64,000 nucleotides of DNA from Parerythrobacter aestuarii. Its GTDB lineage: Bacteria; Pseudomonadota; Alphaproteobacteria; Sphingomonadales; Sphingomonadaceae. How positions within the stretch are numbered: the stretch's first letter is position 1; the number at the start of each line of letters is the position of its first letter. The stretch is taken from contig NZ_JARBWD010000001.1 in NCBI RefSeq assembly GCF_030140925.1, positions 1,674,001 through 1,738,000 on the forward strand, given 5' to 3'. A model generated the notes under the pieces. It worked only from the letters and a program-made list of their open reading frames with translations. It did not search any database and had not been told where the DNA came from. This document shows positions 25,757 through 59,886 of this stretch, piece by piece. A program made the position numbers and the translations under genes.

Positions 25757-25994
25757 ATCCTACTCCTACTTGGCGAGAGTATGGCGGGAGTAGGGGCCAC
25801 ACGCTCGCATCTTGCGAAACTAATTGGCCGATACTGTGAAGGTGTTAATCGGCCTGGTGTTGCGTCCGACATCACGAATGCTTGTGCATTCGCCAGAGGG
25901 GCCCGGTCCGTGCCCCCAATACGCCATCGGAAAACCTTGGTTCCCGGCTTTCGGCTAGGAGTTGCAAATTTTGAACTGGTGCGTGTGCAGGAAG

Positions 25995-48046: not shown

Positions 48047-48700
48047 ATGCAAAGGACTTATCATTTCTCGAACATTGGGCCGACCAGGGCGGAAGGTGAC
48101 ATCTTTGCGATTCTGGTGGAGGCCGGTCGCCGTCAGGTCTTTGACCATGGCACGCAAGTGCTTCACCGAGGTGACCCGCCGAAGGGGTTCTGGTTGATAG
48201 AAGAAGGACAGGTAATGGCCTGTCGGTTCACCAGGGAAGGGGAACGTATCCTCTATGGCGTCCTCGGTAGTGGCGACCTCATTGGCGAACTGGCTTGCTT
48301 CACTGGCTTGCTCCAACAGATGAACGCCTTCGCTGAAGGCAGCGCCACCTTGGTGTGGGTTCCACTGCCCCAAATTGACGGATTGCTTGAAGATGAGCCG
48401 CAATTTGCGCGCTGGTTGCTCAGCGCGATGGCGCACAAGATGCGTCTGGCATTGGACAGGATTGAAGTCGACTCCAGCCTTTCCGCCAAGGCCCGCATCG
48501 CTCGCGTCCTTGCAGACCTGGTTTTGGAAGAGGGACAGGATCTGGAGATAACCCAGCAGCAACTGGCCGATTTCATAGGGGTTTCACGCGTGACTGTTGG
48601 CCAGGTCTTGGGGGCCCTCGAACGTGAGGGGTTGGTGCAGCGGAACTACAGCAGGATCCGCGTGTGCAATGCTGGTGGCCTTGTCGAACTGGCCGGTTGA
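48047..48700 (+). CDS. Crp/Fnr-family transcription regulator
   Basis: 217 residues. The N-terminal cyclic-nucleotide-type beta-roll spans about 25-120 (HGTQVLHRGDPPKGFWLIEEGQV, GSGDLIGELACF). A dimer helix follows, and the C-terminal winged helix has EITQQQLADFIGVSRVTVGQVLGALEREGLVQ. There is no N-terminal Cys set for an Fe-S cluster, so it is not an oxygen-sensing FNR of the classic type. Effector unknown. Divergent from the HD-aldolase pair, which is the obvious candidate target. Confidence 0.9.
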   Translation: MQRTYHFSNIGPTRAEGDIFAILVEAGRRQVFDHGTQVLHRGDPPKGFWLIEEGQVMACRFTREGERILYGVLGSGDLIGELACFTGLLQQMNAFAEGSATLVWVPLPQIDGLLEDEPQFARWLLSAMAHKMRLALDRIEVDSSLSAKARIARVLADLVLEEGQDLEITQQQLADFIGVSRVTVGQVLGALEREGLVQRNYSRIRVCNAGGLVELAG

Positions 48701-48798: not shown

Positions 48799-50145
48799 GT
48801 GCACCACGAGAAGATCGATCTGCAGGCAGCTGAAGATGCAGAACGCCTTAAATCCTTCGGAGTTTCGGACAAGGCCAATGAAGCCTTCGTCAAGATCGCC
48901 GACTTGCTTCGTCCGCATGCACGCGAACTGGCTACCACATATCTTGATCACTTTCTGGATTTTGCCGGCCTGATGGTGACCCCTGAACAGCGTGAGTTCC
49001 AGATCGGCAAGACTGCTGCTTACAGCGCCAATAAATATACCCCGCCAATCGACGGTGAATGGATCGCCCGCGTGCGTAAGATGGGCCAGATGCAGTACAA
49101 GCTCGGCACTGACGCATACGCCAATCTCGGGGCCCTGAGCCGCTCACAGCGCCAGTCCGCCGCAATCATCTTTGCCGGCGCAGACAGTGTTTCCGAGGGC
49201 CAATACCTGGTGGAACAGTTCATGCGTGTTGCTGCGCTTGAATCCGAGATCATGATGTCGACAATCCAGCAGGAACATCATGCGGCCTACCGCGCCAAGG
49301 CGGCAGAGCAGGCGCAAAAGTTCCGTAGCGAGATCGCGTCTGCCGTCGAAGAAGCCGTCACCAAGAGCCGTTCTTCGCGCGAGCAATGCGAAGAAGCCGC
49401 CAATATGACCAACCAGCTGCTCAATTTGGCGAGCGAAGTCGCAGCGTCCTCGCAGCAATCGTATAGCGCGATGGCCGAAGCGGCTCAGACGTCCGGCGGG
49501 ATCAAGGATACCATCGAAACCATCAAGCATGATCTCGCAGCGACCGTTTCCTCGCTGCACAGCGCCACATCGGTAGCGGACAAGGCCGCTCATAATGCCG
49601 ATCAACTCGCTGATCACAGTACGTCGATCGAAAAAATCCTGCAGCTGATCAAGGCCATCACTGAACAGACCAACATTCTGGCGCTGAATGCCACCATCGA
49701 GGCGGCGCGCGCAGGTGAGGCAGGGCGAGGTTTCTCTGTCGTGGCCAATGAGATCAAGGATCTGGCCGGTAAGACCGCCCGCGCGACAGATGAAATCGCC
49801 GATCGCCTCGGTGCGATTGAGGAAGTGGCGGCAAACTCGACAGATTCAAACCGTGAAATGTTGGCCACCTTCGACCAGATCCGCAGTTCGGCCGACCGTT
49901 TGACCGACATCATGCAGGAGCAGTCCTCAAATGTGACCCGCATCGCGGCTTGCGTGGACGAAACTGCGACCAGCGCGGAAGCCTCGACCAATGTCATGGC
50001 CCAGATCACCAGCATGGTTGAAGGCATTGCCTTCGATCTCGGGACAGTGACCCAGAGCGCTGGCGAGCTGGACGGCGATATTGCCGAGCTCAAACTCCAT
50101 GCTGACAATTTCGTCGCCAGTCTTTCACAGGTCAACCGCAGCTAG
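48799..50145 (+). CDS. Soluble globin-domain methyl-accepting chemotaxis protein
   Basis: 448 residues with no membrane span, so cytoplasmic. Residues 10-165 form a protoglobin-like sensor ([18 protein letters not shown] and [21 protein letters not shown]). The signalling domain has the hallmark hairpin [31 protein letters not shown]. Compared with HemAT-type sensors, the proximal-His position appears to be Gln99, so haem binding is doubtful. The start is a GTG with GGAGAGG just ahead. Its 3' end overlaps the opposite-strand leuA by 4 bases. Confidence 0.88.
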
Positions 50146-51857
50146 GTTGTAGGGGAACCAACCGATCCATTGGCCGCGCTCAGCACCGCTCGGACGCTGG
50201 CCGTGGCGACGTCTTCGTCGATCCCGCAACCCCAGATGGTTTTGCCTTCCGGCGTGCGACACTCGAGATAGGCGGCCGCACGGGCATCGGTCCCTGTCCC
50301 AAGGGCATGCTCGGTATAATCGAGTACTTCTAGCTGGACTCCGAAAGCTGCACGTAGAGTTGCCATGACGCTGGAGATCAGGCCGTTACCGCGCCCGCTC
50401 ACGCTTTGCTCCTTGCCGTCAACTGCAATTGTTCCGGCAAACAAGCGGGTGCCGTCGCTGGCACGGCTTTCTTCGTAGCTCACCAGCTGGAAATGCTTGG
50501 GGTGGGTCTGAACATGATAGGCGGTCTTGAAAGTCTGCCAGATATCAGCCGCGTTGAGCTCACGCCCGAGCCGGTCGGCCATTTCCTGCACATGTGGTGA
50601 GAAATCGGCCTGCATTTTCTTGGGGAGCTTGAGGCCCTGATCCTGCTCCAACACCCAAGCGAAACCGCCTTTGCCGCTTTGCGAATTGACCCGGATCACG
50701 GCTTCGTAATTGCGACCGAGGTCAGCCGGGTCGATCGGGAGGTATGGCACCCGCCAACGCTCGTCGTTTTGGCGCTCGTGCGCGGCGAAGCCCTTCTTGA
50801 TGGCGTCCTGGTGGCTACCGGAGAAGGCTGTGTAGACCAGTTCACCGCCATAGGGGTGGCGTTGGTGCACGGGGATCTGATTGCAATATTCGACCGTTTC
50901 GATGACGCGATCGATGTCGGAGAAATCCAGGCCCGGATCTACCCCTTGCGTGTACATGTTGAGCGCCATGGTCACGAGGCAGCAATTGCCGGTCCGCTCG
51001 CCATTGCCGAACAGGCACCCTTCAACGCGATCAGCCCCTGCCATCAAGCCGAGTTCCGCTGCTGCGACGCCAGTGCCGCGATCATTGTGGGTGTGCAGGC
51101 TGATGATCGCTCTCTCGCGATTCGGCAGGTGACGGCAGAAATATTCGATCTGGTCGGCGTAGATATTGGGGGTTGCTGCCTCGACCGTAGCCGGCAGATT
51201 CAGGATGATGGGCCTTTCGGGTGTGGGCTGGAGCACTTCCATCACTGCTGCGCAAACCTCGATGCTGAAATCGATTTCGGCGGTGGAGAAGGTCTCGGGC
51301 GAATACTCGAAGTGCCACTCGGTGTTCGGGCGCTTGTCGGCTTCGTCTGCGAGAACCTGTGCCCCCTTGATCGCGACCCCGACGACCTCGTCGGTTGTCA
51401 TGCCGAACACGATTTCCCGCCAGGCAGGGCTGACCGCGTTGTAGAGATGGACAATCGCAGCACGCGCACCGTCGAGGCTTGCGAAGCTGGTACGGATCAG
51501 CTCTTCGCGGCTCTGCGTCAAAACCTGCACCAGCACGTCGTCGGGAATACGCCCTGAGCGCACCAGGCCCTGAATGAAGTCGAACTCGGTTGCCCCGGCG
51601 CTGGGGAAGCCGACTTCGATTTCCTTGATCCCTACTTCCACCAGCAGGTCGAAGAAGCGGTTCTTCTTCACCGCATCCATCGGGTCGATGATCGACTGGT
51701 TGCCGTCGCGCAGGTCGGTGCTGAGCCATCGCGGCGGGCTGCCGATGGTGCGGCTCGGCCATTGACGATCAGGCAAGTCGATCTGCGGGAATGGGCGATA
51801 CTTACCGGACGGATCGCTCAACATATTGCGCATGCGATTTTGGGGCTGGGTACTCAT
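50142..51857 (-). CDS. leuA: 2-Isopropylmalate synthase
   Basis: Condenses acetyl-CoA with 2-oxoisovalerate, the first committed step to leucine. 571 residues of the long LeuA2 type. [15 protein letters not shown] is the N-terminal catalytic signature. The metal-binding [16 protein letters not shown] (HxH) is followed by [22 protein letters not shown]. The C-terminal regulatory domain ([20 protein letters not shown]) probably mediates leucine feedback. A possible leader peptide lies upstream. Confidence 0.96.
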
Positions 51858-51938
51858 GGTCTCGGCTTTTCGAAATCTGGTCAGGTGCTGCTGCGATACC
51901 CCTTGAGCGCGTGGCGCGCTCTTATCGCACGCCGAACG

Positions 51939-51989
51939 TCACGCCCAAGGGCGTGTAAGTCGAATAAGCAGTCCGATCTTCGTAGCCAT
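51939..51989 (-). promoter_or_regulatory. Possible leader peptide and hairpins before leuA
   Basis: A 16-residue ORF, MATKIGLLIRLTRPWA, lies 81 bases upstream of leuA. It has three Leu codons (CTG, CTT, CTT), two of them CTT, a codon expected to be uncommon in such GC-rich DNA, and two Ile codons. Its end overlaps the hairpin CACGCCC-TT-GGGCGTG, and GAGCGCG-CCA-CGCGCTC follows before leuA. This could be a leucine attenuator, but it lacks both a strong ribosome site and a U-tract. Confidence 0.35.
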
Positions 51990-52079
51990 GCAGGCTGTAT
52001 GCGGACAAGGTGAGGGCTTGTAAAGGCAAAGCTCAAGCGGCATCGCAGGTAATTATCTTTCACCACAAGAAGGCCTGCC

Positions 52080-52532
52080 ATGTCCGAAGAGTCCACTGGA
52101 GAGAACGAAGTCACCCATTCCCTCTACGAAACCATGGGGCTGGTCCGGATTATTGATGTAGATCCGGCAGGGCGTGCGAGCCTGGAGTATGAAGCTAAGC
52201 GAGAGCAATGCCATTCGGGAGGGGTGGTGCAAGGCGGCTTCATCAGCGGGTGGATCGACGCTGCAATGGCGCACGCTGCAATGGCCAGGAACGGCGAAGG
52301 CATCGTACCTATGACGCTCGAACTCAAGGTTAGTTATTTTGCGCCGACGCGTCCCGGCCCGGTCATTGCCGAGGCATGGGTCGAGCGACACGGCAAACGC
52401 ACCAGCTTTTACGAGGGCCACCTCAGAGACAAGGATGGAACTGTCCTCGCCAAGGCAACCAGCACCATCCTGCTGGCCGATGTTTCGCGCGTGTTAGCAG
52501 CTTCGAAGAAGGCGACAGGGGATGCTGCATGA
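52080..52532 (+). CDS. PaaI-type hotdog-fold thioesterase
   Basis: 150 residues of the acyl-CoA thioesterase hotdog fold. HSGGVVQGGFISGWIDAAMAHAAMA is the family's active-site helix and loop region. GIVPMTLELKVSYFAPTRPGPVIAEAWVERHGKRTSFYEGHLRDKDGTVLAKATSTI gives the sheet and C-terminal strand pattern. The substrate is probably an acyl- or aryl-CoA. The next gene starts inside its stop codon (ATGA), so they form an operon. Confidence 0.88.
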   Translation: MSEESTGENEVTHSLYETMGLVRIIDVDPAGRASLEYEAKREQCHSGGVVQGGFISGWIDAAMAHAAMARNGEGIVPMTLELKVSYFAPTRPGPVIAEAWVERHGKRTSFYEGHLRDKDGTVLAKATSTILLADVSRVLAASKKATGDAA

Positions 52533-56348: not shown

Positions 56349-57478
<1,130 letters not shown>

Positions 57479-57498
57479 TGGAAATTCTTGATGCTGCG

Positions 57499-58014
57499 CT
57501 AGATCGCCTCCGCGCCGCGCATCATCCCGACGATGCCGGTCCGGCCAACCTCTACCAGGCCGAGCTCACGCATCAGGGCAATGAAACTGTCGACCTTGTC
57601 GGGCGGGCCGGTGATCTCGAAAATGAAGCTCTCGGTCGTGGTATCGACCGGGCGAGCACGGAAGATGTCGGCGAGGCGCAGGGCCTCGACACGCTTCTCG
57701 CCCGTGCCGGAGACTTTCACCAGCGCGAGCTCGCGCTCCACATGTGGACCTGCTTCGGTCAGGTCAGTCACTTTGTGTACCGGCACGAGCCGCTCAAGCT
57801 GGGCATGGATCTGGTCGATCACCTCGGGCGGTCCGTTGGTGACGATGGTGATGCGGCTGATCGCATGGTCTTCGGTAATGTCCGCCACGGTAAGGCTGTC
57901 GATATTGTAGCCTCGCGCAGTGAACAGGCCGGTGATCTTGGCGAGGATACCCGGCTCGTTATCAACGGTAACGGCAAGAACGTGCCGCTCGGCGGCTTTT
58001 GCAGTGATTTTCAT
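57499..58014 (-). CDS. ilvN: Acetolactate synthase small (regulatory) subunit
   Basis: A 171-residue ACT-domain protein. HVLAVTVDNEPGILAKITGLFTARGYNIDSLTV is the valine-binding ACT domain; the C-terminal half has a second small domain (SFIFEITGPPDKVDSFIALMRELGLVEV). It activates IlvB and gives feedback inhibition by valine. It follows ilvB by 12 bases. The symbol ilvH is used for the same role in some genomes. Confidence 0.94.
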   Translation of the reverse strand: MKITAKAAERHVLAVTVDNEPGILAKITGLFTARGYNIDSLTVADITEDHAISRITIVTNGPPEVIDQIHAQLERLVPVHKVTDLTEAGPHVERELALVKVSGTGEKRVEALRLADIFRARPVDTTTESFIFEITGPPDKVDSFIALMRELGLVEVGRTGIVGMMRGAEAI

Positions 58015-58026
58015 GGCGCTCGCCCC

Positions 58027-59784
58027 TTACACCAAAGCCTTGGCTTCGTCGTCCATGGTACCTTCGACCCGGTCGCCATAGAGCAGCATTTCGGTATGCG
58101 CGGCTCCCGAAGGTATCATCGGGAAGCAATTGGCTTCCTTTGACACGAGGCAATCAACGATGACGGGACCATCAGCGGCGAGCATGGCTTCGATCCCAGC
58201 GTCGAGACCGGCTTCATCCTCGATGCGGATACCGGTCCAGCCATAGGCTTCGGCCAGCGCTACGAAATCGGGCAGGCTGTCGGAATAACTGTTCGAATAG
58301 CGGCTCTCATAGGTCAGTTCCTGCCACTGGCGGACCATACCCATGTATTCGTTGTTGAGGATGAAGATCTTGACCGGCAGGCGATACTGGCTCGCAGTGC
58401 CGAGCTCCTGGATGTTCATCTGGATCGAGGCTTCCCCGGCGATATCGATCACCAGGCTATCGGGATTGCCCAATTGTGCTCCGATCGCGGCCGGCAGGCC
58501 ATAGCCCATTGTGCCGAGGCCGCCGCTGGTAAGCCACTTGTTCGGGCCGAAGAAGCCGAAGTACTGCGCCGCCCACATCTGGTGCTGGCCAACTTCCGTG
58601 GTGATGATGGGATCGTGATCCCTGGTGAGTGCGAAGAGGCGCTCGACCGCCTTCTGCGGCATGAGCGCGTCCTTCTTTTCTGGATAGGCCAAGCACTCGC
58701 GCGCCCGCCAGCCCGCGATCCGGGCTTTCCATTCACCCATGTCCTGTGGCTTGCGATCACCCCATGCAGCAATCAATTGCTCAAGCACGGTGCCACAATC
58801 GCCGACGATACCGAGATCGACCGGCACGATCTTGTTGATGCTGGCGCGGTCGATATCGATATGGATCTTCTTCGCCTCGGGAGCGAAAGCGTTGAGCCTG
58901 CCCGTCACCCGGTCATCGAAGCGCGCACCGACGGCGATGATCAGGTCGGCCTTGTTCATCGCCATATTGGCTTCGAACGTCCCGTGCATGCCCAGCATGC
59001 CGAGCCAGTCTGGATGATCGGATGGGAAAGCGCCGAGGCCCATCAACGTTGAGGTGAGCGGTGCATTGGTTAGCGACTGCAGCGTCCGCAGCGCTTCGCT
59101 GGCCTTGGGGCCGGAGTTGATGACGCCGCCGCCTGTGTAGAACACCGGGCGTTGCGCCGCCGCGATCATGTCGATGGCATCGAGCACTTCCTCGGCATGG
59201 GCAACCGTGCGAGGCTGGTAGCGGAAAGAAGCCAGCGGCTTGGCTTTCTCGGCCGCATCGGCATCGGCCATGGCGATCTGTACATCCTTGGGGATGTCGA
59301 TCAGCACTGGTCCTGGACGACCGGATGTTGCGATCCGGAACGCCTCGTGAATGGTCGGTCCGAGTTCGTCGGGATTCTTCACGAGATAGTTGTGTTTCGT
59401 ACAATGCCGCGTGATGCCCACCGTATCGGCTTCCTGGAACGCATCCGTGCCGATCAGACCGCTGGGAACCTGGCCGGTGATGACGACCATGGGGATCGAA
59501 TCCATGTAGGCATCGGCGATCCCGGTCACTGCATTGGTTGCCCCCGGGCCGCTGGTAACCAGCACAACACCCGGCTTGCCGGTGGAACGGGCATAGCCCT
59601 CTGCCGCATGCGCAGCACCGGCCTCGTGACGGACGAGAATATGCCGGATGCGTTCGTCCCCGAACAGCTCATCATAGATCGGCAGGACCGCGCCGCCCGG
59701 ATAGCCGAAAACGAACTCGACGCCTTCACGAACGAGGCAATCGACGAGGATCGCCGCTCCACTGCGTTCGCTAGGGGGTGTCAT
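58027..59784 (-). CDS. ilvB: Acetolactate synthase large (catalytic) subunit
   Basis: A 585-residue thiamin-diphosphate/FAD enzyme joining two pyruvates or pyruvate with 2-oxobutyrate. [16 protein letters not shown] and [18 protein letters not shown] hold the catalytic Glu. The ThDP-binding region is [29 protein letters not shown]. The start at the ATG at 59784 follows GGAG by 8 bases; the longer open frame from 59886 begins within a likely promoter. It leads the ilvB-ilvN-ilvC operon. Confidence 0.95.
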
Positions 59785-59857
59785 TTCCAACTCTCCAGTA
59801 AAGATCAGGCCCGGCGCTCTGGGTAGAACGTCGGGCCCGAGGGGTTTGTCCAAGGCC

Positions 59858-59886
59858 CGTGTACGAGTCTCTTTATGTCCTGTCAA
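59858..59886 (-). promoter_or_regulatory. Candidate sigma-70 promoter for ilvB-ilvN-ilvC
   Basis: On the minus strand TTGACA (59881-59886) is followed after 17 bases by TACACG (59858-59863), a good -35 with a weak -10. It sits just beyond the miaA stop and about 75 bases before ilvB. Confidence 0.45.

Follow-up and report, generated by a model that had tools for sequence, protein, structure and literature searches.

A conserved leucine leader upstream of leuA in two LeuA subfamilies is a probable attenuator of leuA translation

Of known systems, the leader described here most resembles the LEU element located before leuA in Actinobacteria (Seliverstov et al. 2005, PMC1262725). According to the portion of that paper available to us, the element's Leu codons are predicted to form pairs with the leuA Shine-Dalgarno sequence below a pseudoknot, and the authors considered control via leader translation unlikely there. 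The two systems are alike in that both are computational predictions, the ORF ahead of leuA has Leu codons in a run, these codons are predicted to pair with the leuA Shine-Dalgarno region (in our case as a property of the group), and no terminator is involved. However, the LEU element contains a pseudoknot, whereas the inner part of the present leader is a nested, covarying helix formed with the leader's end (only nested structures were examined here), and the LEU element occurs in a different phylum with no sign of common descent. As described in the excerpts consulted, the leuL systems of E. coli and Shewanella also place a short Leu-containing leader with alternative helices before leuA (PMC6123439, PMC2659441), but these use a terminator, while in our case a U-tract is rare and the ORF is probably leaderless. 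Similarly, the trpL/rnTrpL leader of Sinorhizobium meliloti is an alphaproteobacterial leader ORF on an mRNA that starts with AUG, but it concerns tryptophan and attenuates transcription, with a small RNA as product, and leuA is absent from the available text (PMC10117765). The uORFC-8-2 motif before cysS in Rhodobacterales is another alphaproteobacterial uORF whose conserved control codons were found by comparison, although it concerns cysteine and carries an intrinsic terminator with a U run; the word 'leucine' is absent from the portion of the text available (PMC8632094). No alphaproteobacterial leuA leader was found in the literature searched, which took in few subscription papers; Vitreschak et al. 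2004 might treat this leader.

The leader ORF is located on the minus strand at 51939..51989 of the window, the 64,000-nucleotide stretch of DNA analysed here. Its codons, from 51989 to 51939, are ATG GCT ACG AAG ATC GGA CTG CTT ATT CGA CTT ACA CGC CCT TGG GCG TGA, which encode MATKIGLLIRLTRPWA* (asterisks denote stop codons), and its stop lies 81 nt before the start of leuA. The latter gene (50142..51857, minus strand) encodes a 'type 2' 2-isopropylmalate synthase that scores above cut-off against the NCBIfam models NF002991.1 (857.8 bits) and TIGR00970.1 (801.2 bits). The first-pass annotation had pointed to a possible leucine leader before leuA that contains three Leu codons, including two CTT, and the minus-strand reading and the conservation in relatives bear this out; CTT accounts for 12.8% of Leu codons in the 40 long ORFs of the window. 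It had also described a reading frame that ends in a CACGCCC-GGGCGTG hairpin with a second hairpin following, and both are seen in the window sequence, the first (with a TT loop) overlapping the leader stop codon. The folding energy of the leader piece is unremarkable, with 8 of 200 shuffles folding equally well, as did 22 of 200 for a longer piece of the window. What places the leader above chance is its conservation, not folding energy alone.

Several other features are located in the same window. The protein encoded at 48799-50145 (plus strand), presumably a globin-coupled sensor, combines a protoglobin domain with a methyl-accepting chemotaxis signalling domain, and a Crp-type regulator lies beside it at 48047-48700 (plus strand). 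The ORFs at 56349-59886 (minus strand), which we take to be ilvB, ilvN and ilvC look-alikes, are on the strand of leuA about 4.5 kb upstream, and the first has TPP-enzyme domains. No leuA-type leader was seen by eye before the ilvB-like ORF. In addition, a match to the terC cis-regulatory RNA (Rfam RF03067, 52.3 bits) occurs at 25858-25914 (minus strand).

To assess conservation near the window's family, we sampled the 80 leuA loci that ranked best for LeuA protein similarity, whose titles include Erythrobacter, Qipengyuania, Novosphingobium and their relatives, together with four loci from the same genus; the leader was unknown to this selection. The core CTN CGA CTT ANN CGC CCT TNG GCG is present with no more than three substitutions in all 84 of these loci besides the window's own, one of them (L049) having a core interrupted by a run of N, and the comparison across relatives called for by the first-pass annotation thus came out in favour of the leader. 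One locus (L045) uses a TTG start and another (L026) has GTG at the usual place of the ATG. Most leader peptides have an ending like LRLTRPWA, and a clade with TAG in place of TGG ends in LRLTRP*; the stops move by whole codons (PWA* or P*). A covariance model termed R1, built from 79 sequences (alignment A1), matched 143 of the 246 genomes from the order, which we take to be Sphingomonadales in the class Alphaproteobacteria, with Sphingomonadaceae as the window's own family. Twenty genomes of the same family were listed as lacking an R1 match, and 16 of these were searched for the window-type LeuA. No match was found in 15, and one gave a weak match at 26%, and the absence of the leader therefore tracks the absence of this LeuA. 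These 15 genomes (G098, G107, G116, G118, G124, G139 and others) may belong to leucine auxotrophs or carry another LeuA.

A broader model, R2, was made from 74 sequences (alignment A3; alignment A2 was left out because it contained antisense echoes) and matched 58 of the 385 genomes sampled over the class, 53 of them outside the window's own family. Downstream genes were read for 70 of the 143 R1 genomes and for 25 of these 53 R2 genomes, and in all 95 cases the gene is leuA, of two LeuA subfamilies that were told apart by motif, with NCBIfam applied only to the LeuA proteins of the window and of the type-1 example L175 (TIGR00973). Among the R1 matches read (L086-L155, the window's included), 58 are upstream of type-2 LeuA by this motif criterion. 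The remaining 12 precede type-1 LeuA, recognised by FDTTLRDGEQSPG, and comprise eight from other families of the order and four from the own family. Outside the own family, all 25 R2 matches read are upstream of type-1 leuA. Both models mostly yield one match per genome, and second matches are mostly antisense echoes. The class leaders include Leu-rich examples such as MAARAFTFASGTLLLALLLIFGAGRLIGP* (L161) and MYIVGTVLLLSLLLLLGAGRLIGP* (L164), and in L204 the frame continues beyond the Pro codon.

The class was also sampled by way of the gene. A LeuA protein search matched 46 of 106 class genomes, from which 45 upstream regions were fetched, and 27 of these contain R2 on the sense strand at E 0.01 or better with filters off. 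The other 18 loci had no sense-strand R2 match at this threshold; two of them (L232 and L233) appear by eye to be divergent members. By sequence comparison, then, the leader tracks leuA function across two LeuA subfamilies and not one gene family. We regard the existence of a conserved, widespread leucine leader of leuA as strongly supported.

The leader contains a conserved codon pair, CGA CTT (51957..51962, minus strand), whose CTT is the proposed stall codon. In counts that are partly circular because the loci were chosen by a pattern containing the core, CGA is found in 124 of 124 type-2 and 47 of 49 type-1 loci, the codon 5 nt before the helix B arm described below is CTT or CTA in all 124 type-2 loci and CTT in all 49 type-1 loci, and the fifth codon from CGA encodes Pro in every locus of both types. 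For comparison, 15.9% of the Leu codons used by window ORFs are CTT or CTA. Leu codons represent 37% of the codons from the start to CGA in family representatives versus 10.7% in window ORFs. In three leuA-anchored class loci (L213, L214 and L216), a Leu codon stands in place of CGA, with CTT unchanged. The gap between CTT and the arm is without indels in alignments A1 and A3, and a ribosome stalled at CUU would cover the helix B arm. The stop follows directly after Pro in 40 of 49 type-1 loci (for example L161 and L172-L197) and two codons later in 87 of 124 family loci.

A promoter scan identified a -10-like hexamer, CATACA (51996..52001, minus strand), 6 nt before the leader ATG, and a -35-like hexamer, TTTACA (52019..52024, minus strand), giving the layout TTTACA-17-CATACA-6-ATG. 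The best promoter match falls 6 or 7 nt upstream of the leader ATG in 26 of 45 loci, and the mean score peaks there (z 7.5 at 7 nt). A Shine-Dalgarno-like tetramer precedes the leader in five of the 45 loci. This promoter spacing suggests that the transcript probably starts at the leader AUG, making the ORF leaderless, which would fit the weak ribosome site noted in the first-pass annotation. Many leaderless mRNAs have been reported in Caulobacter, in a paper whose available text has no mention of leuA (PMC4117421), and trpL of S. meliloti is likewise described as leaderless in the excerpt consulted (PMC10117765).

Structurally, helix B joins a 5ˊ arm in the leader's last codons (CCCTTGGGCG; 51942..51951, minus strand) to a downstream 3ˊ arm (CGCTCAAGGG; 51900..51909, minus strand). 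In A1 and A3, 96.7% and 89.9% of cells are paired, respectively, compared with 22.9-62.7% and 21.0-57.1% when the arms are slid. Five of ten pairs have changed on both sides in A1 (equalled in 1 of 500 shuffles), and the covariation value is 0.173 versus 0.121 for shuffled alignments (0/500). In A3, nine of 12 pairs have changed on both sides (17/500 shuffles), there are 77 doubly changed cells (0/500), and covariation is 0.311 versus 0.189 for shuffled (0/500) and at most 0.143 for slid arms. Hairpin A, CACGCCC-TT-GGGCGTG (51940..51955, minus strand), is largely kept in relatives, as the first-pass annotation had asked to see, with 90.6% (A1) and 81.1% (A3) of cells paired. It has more doubly changed cells than shuffles in both alignments, although its doubly changed pairs are no higher than in shuffles (280/500 in A1, 431/500 in A3). 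Hairpin A and helix B share one strand and are mutually exclusive, and comparative evidence favours the downstream arm at 51909-51900 over that of hairpin A as the partner of the shared strand. Between the arms of helix B is an inner hairpin C, GGCGTGC...GCGCGCC (51913..51933, minus strand), which is variable in relatives and whose arms are also paired in the predicted fold.

The first-pass annotation had viewed this arrangement as the classic layout of attenuation control, a description that holds for the conserved Leu leader and the alternative helices and fails for the terminator. No terminator-like site was found in the window, and a U-tract (at least 5 T in 8 nt, no more than 20 nt past the 3ˊ arm) is present in only two of 45 family loci and six of 31 class loci. 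An intrinsic terminator was therefore rejected, and the leader lacks the U-tract terminator of a classical transcription attenuator of the E. coli leuL type. It does probably belong with ribosome-mediated attenuators in the broad sense, having a conserved Leu-codon ORF and alternative structures that could be selected by ribosome position, as judged from the modelled overlap of a stalled ribosome. A search of Rfam 15 gave no match in window positions 51800-52200 at E values up to 10, and in ten loci it returned only microRNA-model matches at L164:2093-2174, away from the L164 leader.

We also compared the leader with the leuA ribosome-binding region (-30..-1; 51858..51887, minus strand), which is the proposed 3ˊ side of a further helix, D. 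The evidence comes from group tests, the window alone being suggestive. The family set has 136 loci, of which 126 are distinct and 124 have a usable start, reduced to 44 representatives below 62% identity. The class set of 49 type-1 loci (in some cases one place fetched twice) gave 31 representatives. A second class set was drawn from the 45 leuA-anchored loci, 19 of which had both core and start located; 16 were new, ten of these being R2 matches, and this set was separated from the first by exact match around the core alone. The leader start was taken as the most upstream in-frame ATG in tests of the 126 loci and as the ATG at the usual distance in later tests. Because the block -30..-1 was picked after viewing the family set, the class sets serve as replication.

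In the 126 related family loci, own pairs of leader and leuA region are better than mismatched pairs by 2.29 ± 0.40 kcal/mol, and own pairs are better in 67%. The mean duplex energy for the 44 family representatives is -17.06 versus -14.05 for mismatched pairs (sd 0.42; 0/5000 as good), and 29 of 5000 mismatched sets were as good for the 31 class representatives. When DNA upstream of the leader was used as a control, these counts were 4171/5000 for the family and 941 and 1007/5000 for the class. A stem score for leader -27..+6 against leuA -30..-1 gave z 5.6 in the family (n=44, 0/10000), 9/10000 in the class (n=31) and 7/10000 in the ten further class loci. The combined class sets (n=41) gave z 5.3 with 0/10000, and the same result on repetition. 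Mapping located the family peak where 13-nt leader windows that begin 26 to 18 nt upstream of CGA meet leuA windows beginning at -19 and -14 (z up to 3.8), with a nearby peak (z 3.7) in the 31 class representatives, which have the other LeuA. The family signal is stronger in the variable leader codons (z 5.9) than in the constant core (z 2.5), and in the class the core (z 3.9) exceeds the variable codons (z 2.6). Examples of the pairing are UGGUCCUUCG:CGAAGGACCA (L195), UUCUCUCCU:AGGAGAGAA (L231), UCCUUCGACU:AGUCGAAGGA (L186), CUUCGACUU:AAGUCGAAG (L072) and CGAUUCUUCG:CGAAGAAUCG (L204). These comparisons indicate that complementarity of the leader to the leuA ribosome-binding region is a property of the group. 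Against the model, a Shine-Dalgarno-like tetramer is rare before leuA, being present in five of 45 family loci.

Control blocks were mostly without signal, including leuA -60..-31 (z 0.4 and 0.3), leuA +1..+30 (z 0.6 and 1.6) and DNA upstream of the leader (z -0.4, 1.5, -0.5 and 0.9). The block +7..+45 is not clean, with z 2.3 in the family (132/10000), z 1.0 in the class, and t -3.6 against the leader in the 126 related loci. One group fold had suggested that CGACUUA pairs with early leuA codons, an idea that was rejected given these +1..+30 and +7..+45 values and the lack of such a peak in the map. Likewise, there was no clear signal for pairing of the leuA ribosome region with the helix B 5ˊ arm (-0.44 ± 0.32 kcal/mol) or with the inner region (-0.51 ± 0.39 kcal/mol). 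The leuA ribosome site of one clade resembles the helix B 3ˊ arm, which we judged to be coincidental. A clade of 12 loci (L025, L032, L050, L052-L054, L056, L057, L061, L062, L066 and L067) has an extra GC-rich stretch and a repeated GATAAG-like sequence before the leuA start.

The consequence of stalling was modelled as the energy needed to open leuA -22..-3. For the class (n=40), the predicted cost is 10.7 kcal/mol when the own leader is free and 7.3 when a ribosome is stalled at CUU, while foreign leaders give 7.7. The corresponding family values (n=44) are 7.7, 6.3 and 6.4. Stalling is predicted to lower the cost by more than 0.5 kcal/mol in only 28 of 40 class and 24 of 44 family loci, and the family difference is weaker for the region -18..+6 (0.84 ± 0.56). 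In five loci picked for a strong helix D (L204, L195, L186, L231 and L165), the predicted folds have D enclosing B, and D is lost when the ribosome is stalled. For the window itself, the leader pairs with its own leuA region at -18.7 kcal/mol compared to a foreign mean of -15.8 (sd 3.2), with 23 of 123 foreign regions pairing better, which is not significant. Its opening energies are 6.8 free, 5.7 stalled and 5.9 foreign (sd 1.6), and its predicted folds include neither helix D nor the switch, the minimum-energy fold having a local hairpin at the ribosome site. Among its four congeners, the opening energies of L083 and L084 agree with the model, L085 is neutral and L082 is opposite; for the L083 duplex, 94 of 123 foreign ones are better. 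Because the window alone is not significant, it is the group that supports helix D in this genome, and we infer that the helix works here.

The leader, both covarying arms of helix B and the group-wide complementarity between leader and leuA emerge from comparison of sequences. We consider it probable that they constitute a leucine leader-peptide attenuator, most likely one acting on leuA translation, since the covariation of the leader with the leuA ribosome-binding region points to translation control. In the proposed mechanism, transcription would begin at or near the leader AUG, such that a leaderless 16-codon ORF opens the mRNA. When leucine is plentiful, the ribosome would reach the leader stop and depart, permitting the leader's last codons to zip with the downstream arm as helix B and the codons preceding CGA CUU to pair with the leuA ribosome-binding region as helix D. 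Together, B and D would form one long nested hairpin that closes leuA. Presumably, a shortage of leucyl-tRNA would cause stalling at the conserved rare CUU, 5 nt before the 5ˊ arm. Halted there, the ribosome would mask the leader segment together with some of this arm, thereby blocking both helices and leaving leuA to be translated. The stalling, the direction of the response and the translational output are likely features of such a device.

Transcription attenuation, in which the stall and hairpin switch would govern an unusual intrinsic terminator (helix B plus hairpin C) or Rho when leucine is plentiful, is in our assessment unlikely. The mutually exclusive A and B structures around the stop codon would suit it, and the spacer between the 3ˊ arm and leuA has more C (0.33) than G (0.21) in family and class loci, which Rho could use, but the rarity of U-tracts and the lack of a terminator-like site in the window argue against it, and it leaves the covariation between the leader and leuA -30..-1 unexplained. 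Far less probable still is nascent-peptide arrest, whereby the conserved R-L-x-x-P end would cause stalling when free leucine, not uncharged tRNA, is sensed. The fixed Pro (a partly circular count) and the stop directly after it in most type-1 loci are what such arrest might produce, although most family loci stop two codons later, CGA gives way to a Leu codon in three class loci, and the Pro codon lies within helix B, which can account for its constancy.

We give equally little credence to a structured 5′ UTR, whether a stability element or a protein site, in which the leader is untranslated and the ORF is incidental. This would agree with the conservation of CGACUUA and both arms as nucleotides and with the scarcity of Shine-Dalgarno-like tetramers before the leader, but would not be expected to hold a start codon in place behind the promoter, to enrich Leu codons between the start and the core, or to shift stops by whole codons.

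With somewhat less assurance than for translational attenuation by the leader peptide, we favour the view that this motif is an undescribed, class-wide attenuator whose Leu codons serve as the anti-ribosome-site of leuA and so combine sensor and lock in one, with CUU placed 5 nt before a covarying arm. It would serve two LeuA subfamilies, be leaderless in the window's family, and represent an independent invention of the logic proposed for the LEU element. LeuA catalyses the committed step of leucine synthesis, and if this reading is correct, the regulation of leuA could be read from one motif in much of the class, and the motif would constitute a new RNA family. The system could also be used to study attenuation that involves no terminator and takes place on leaderless mRNA. 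Furthermore, it would suggest that pyrimidine-rich Leu codons are suited to an anti-Shine-Dalgarno role, which would explain how one design could arise twice.
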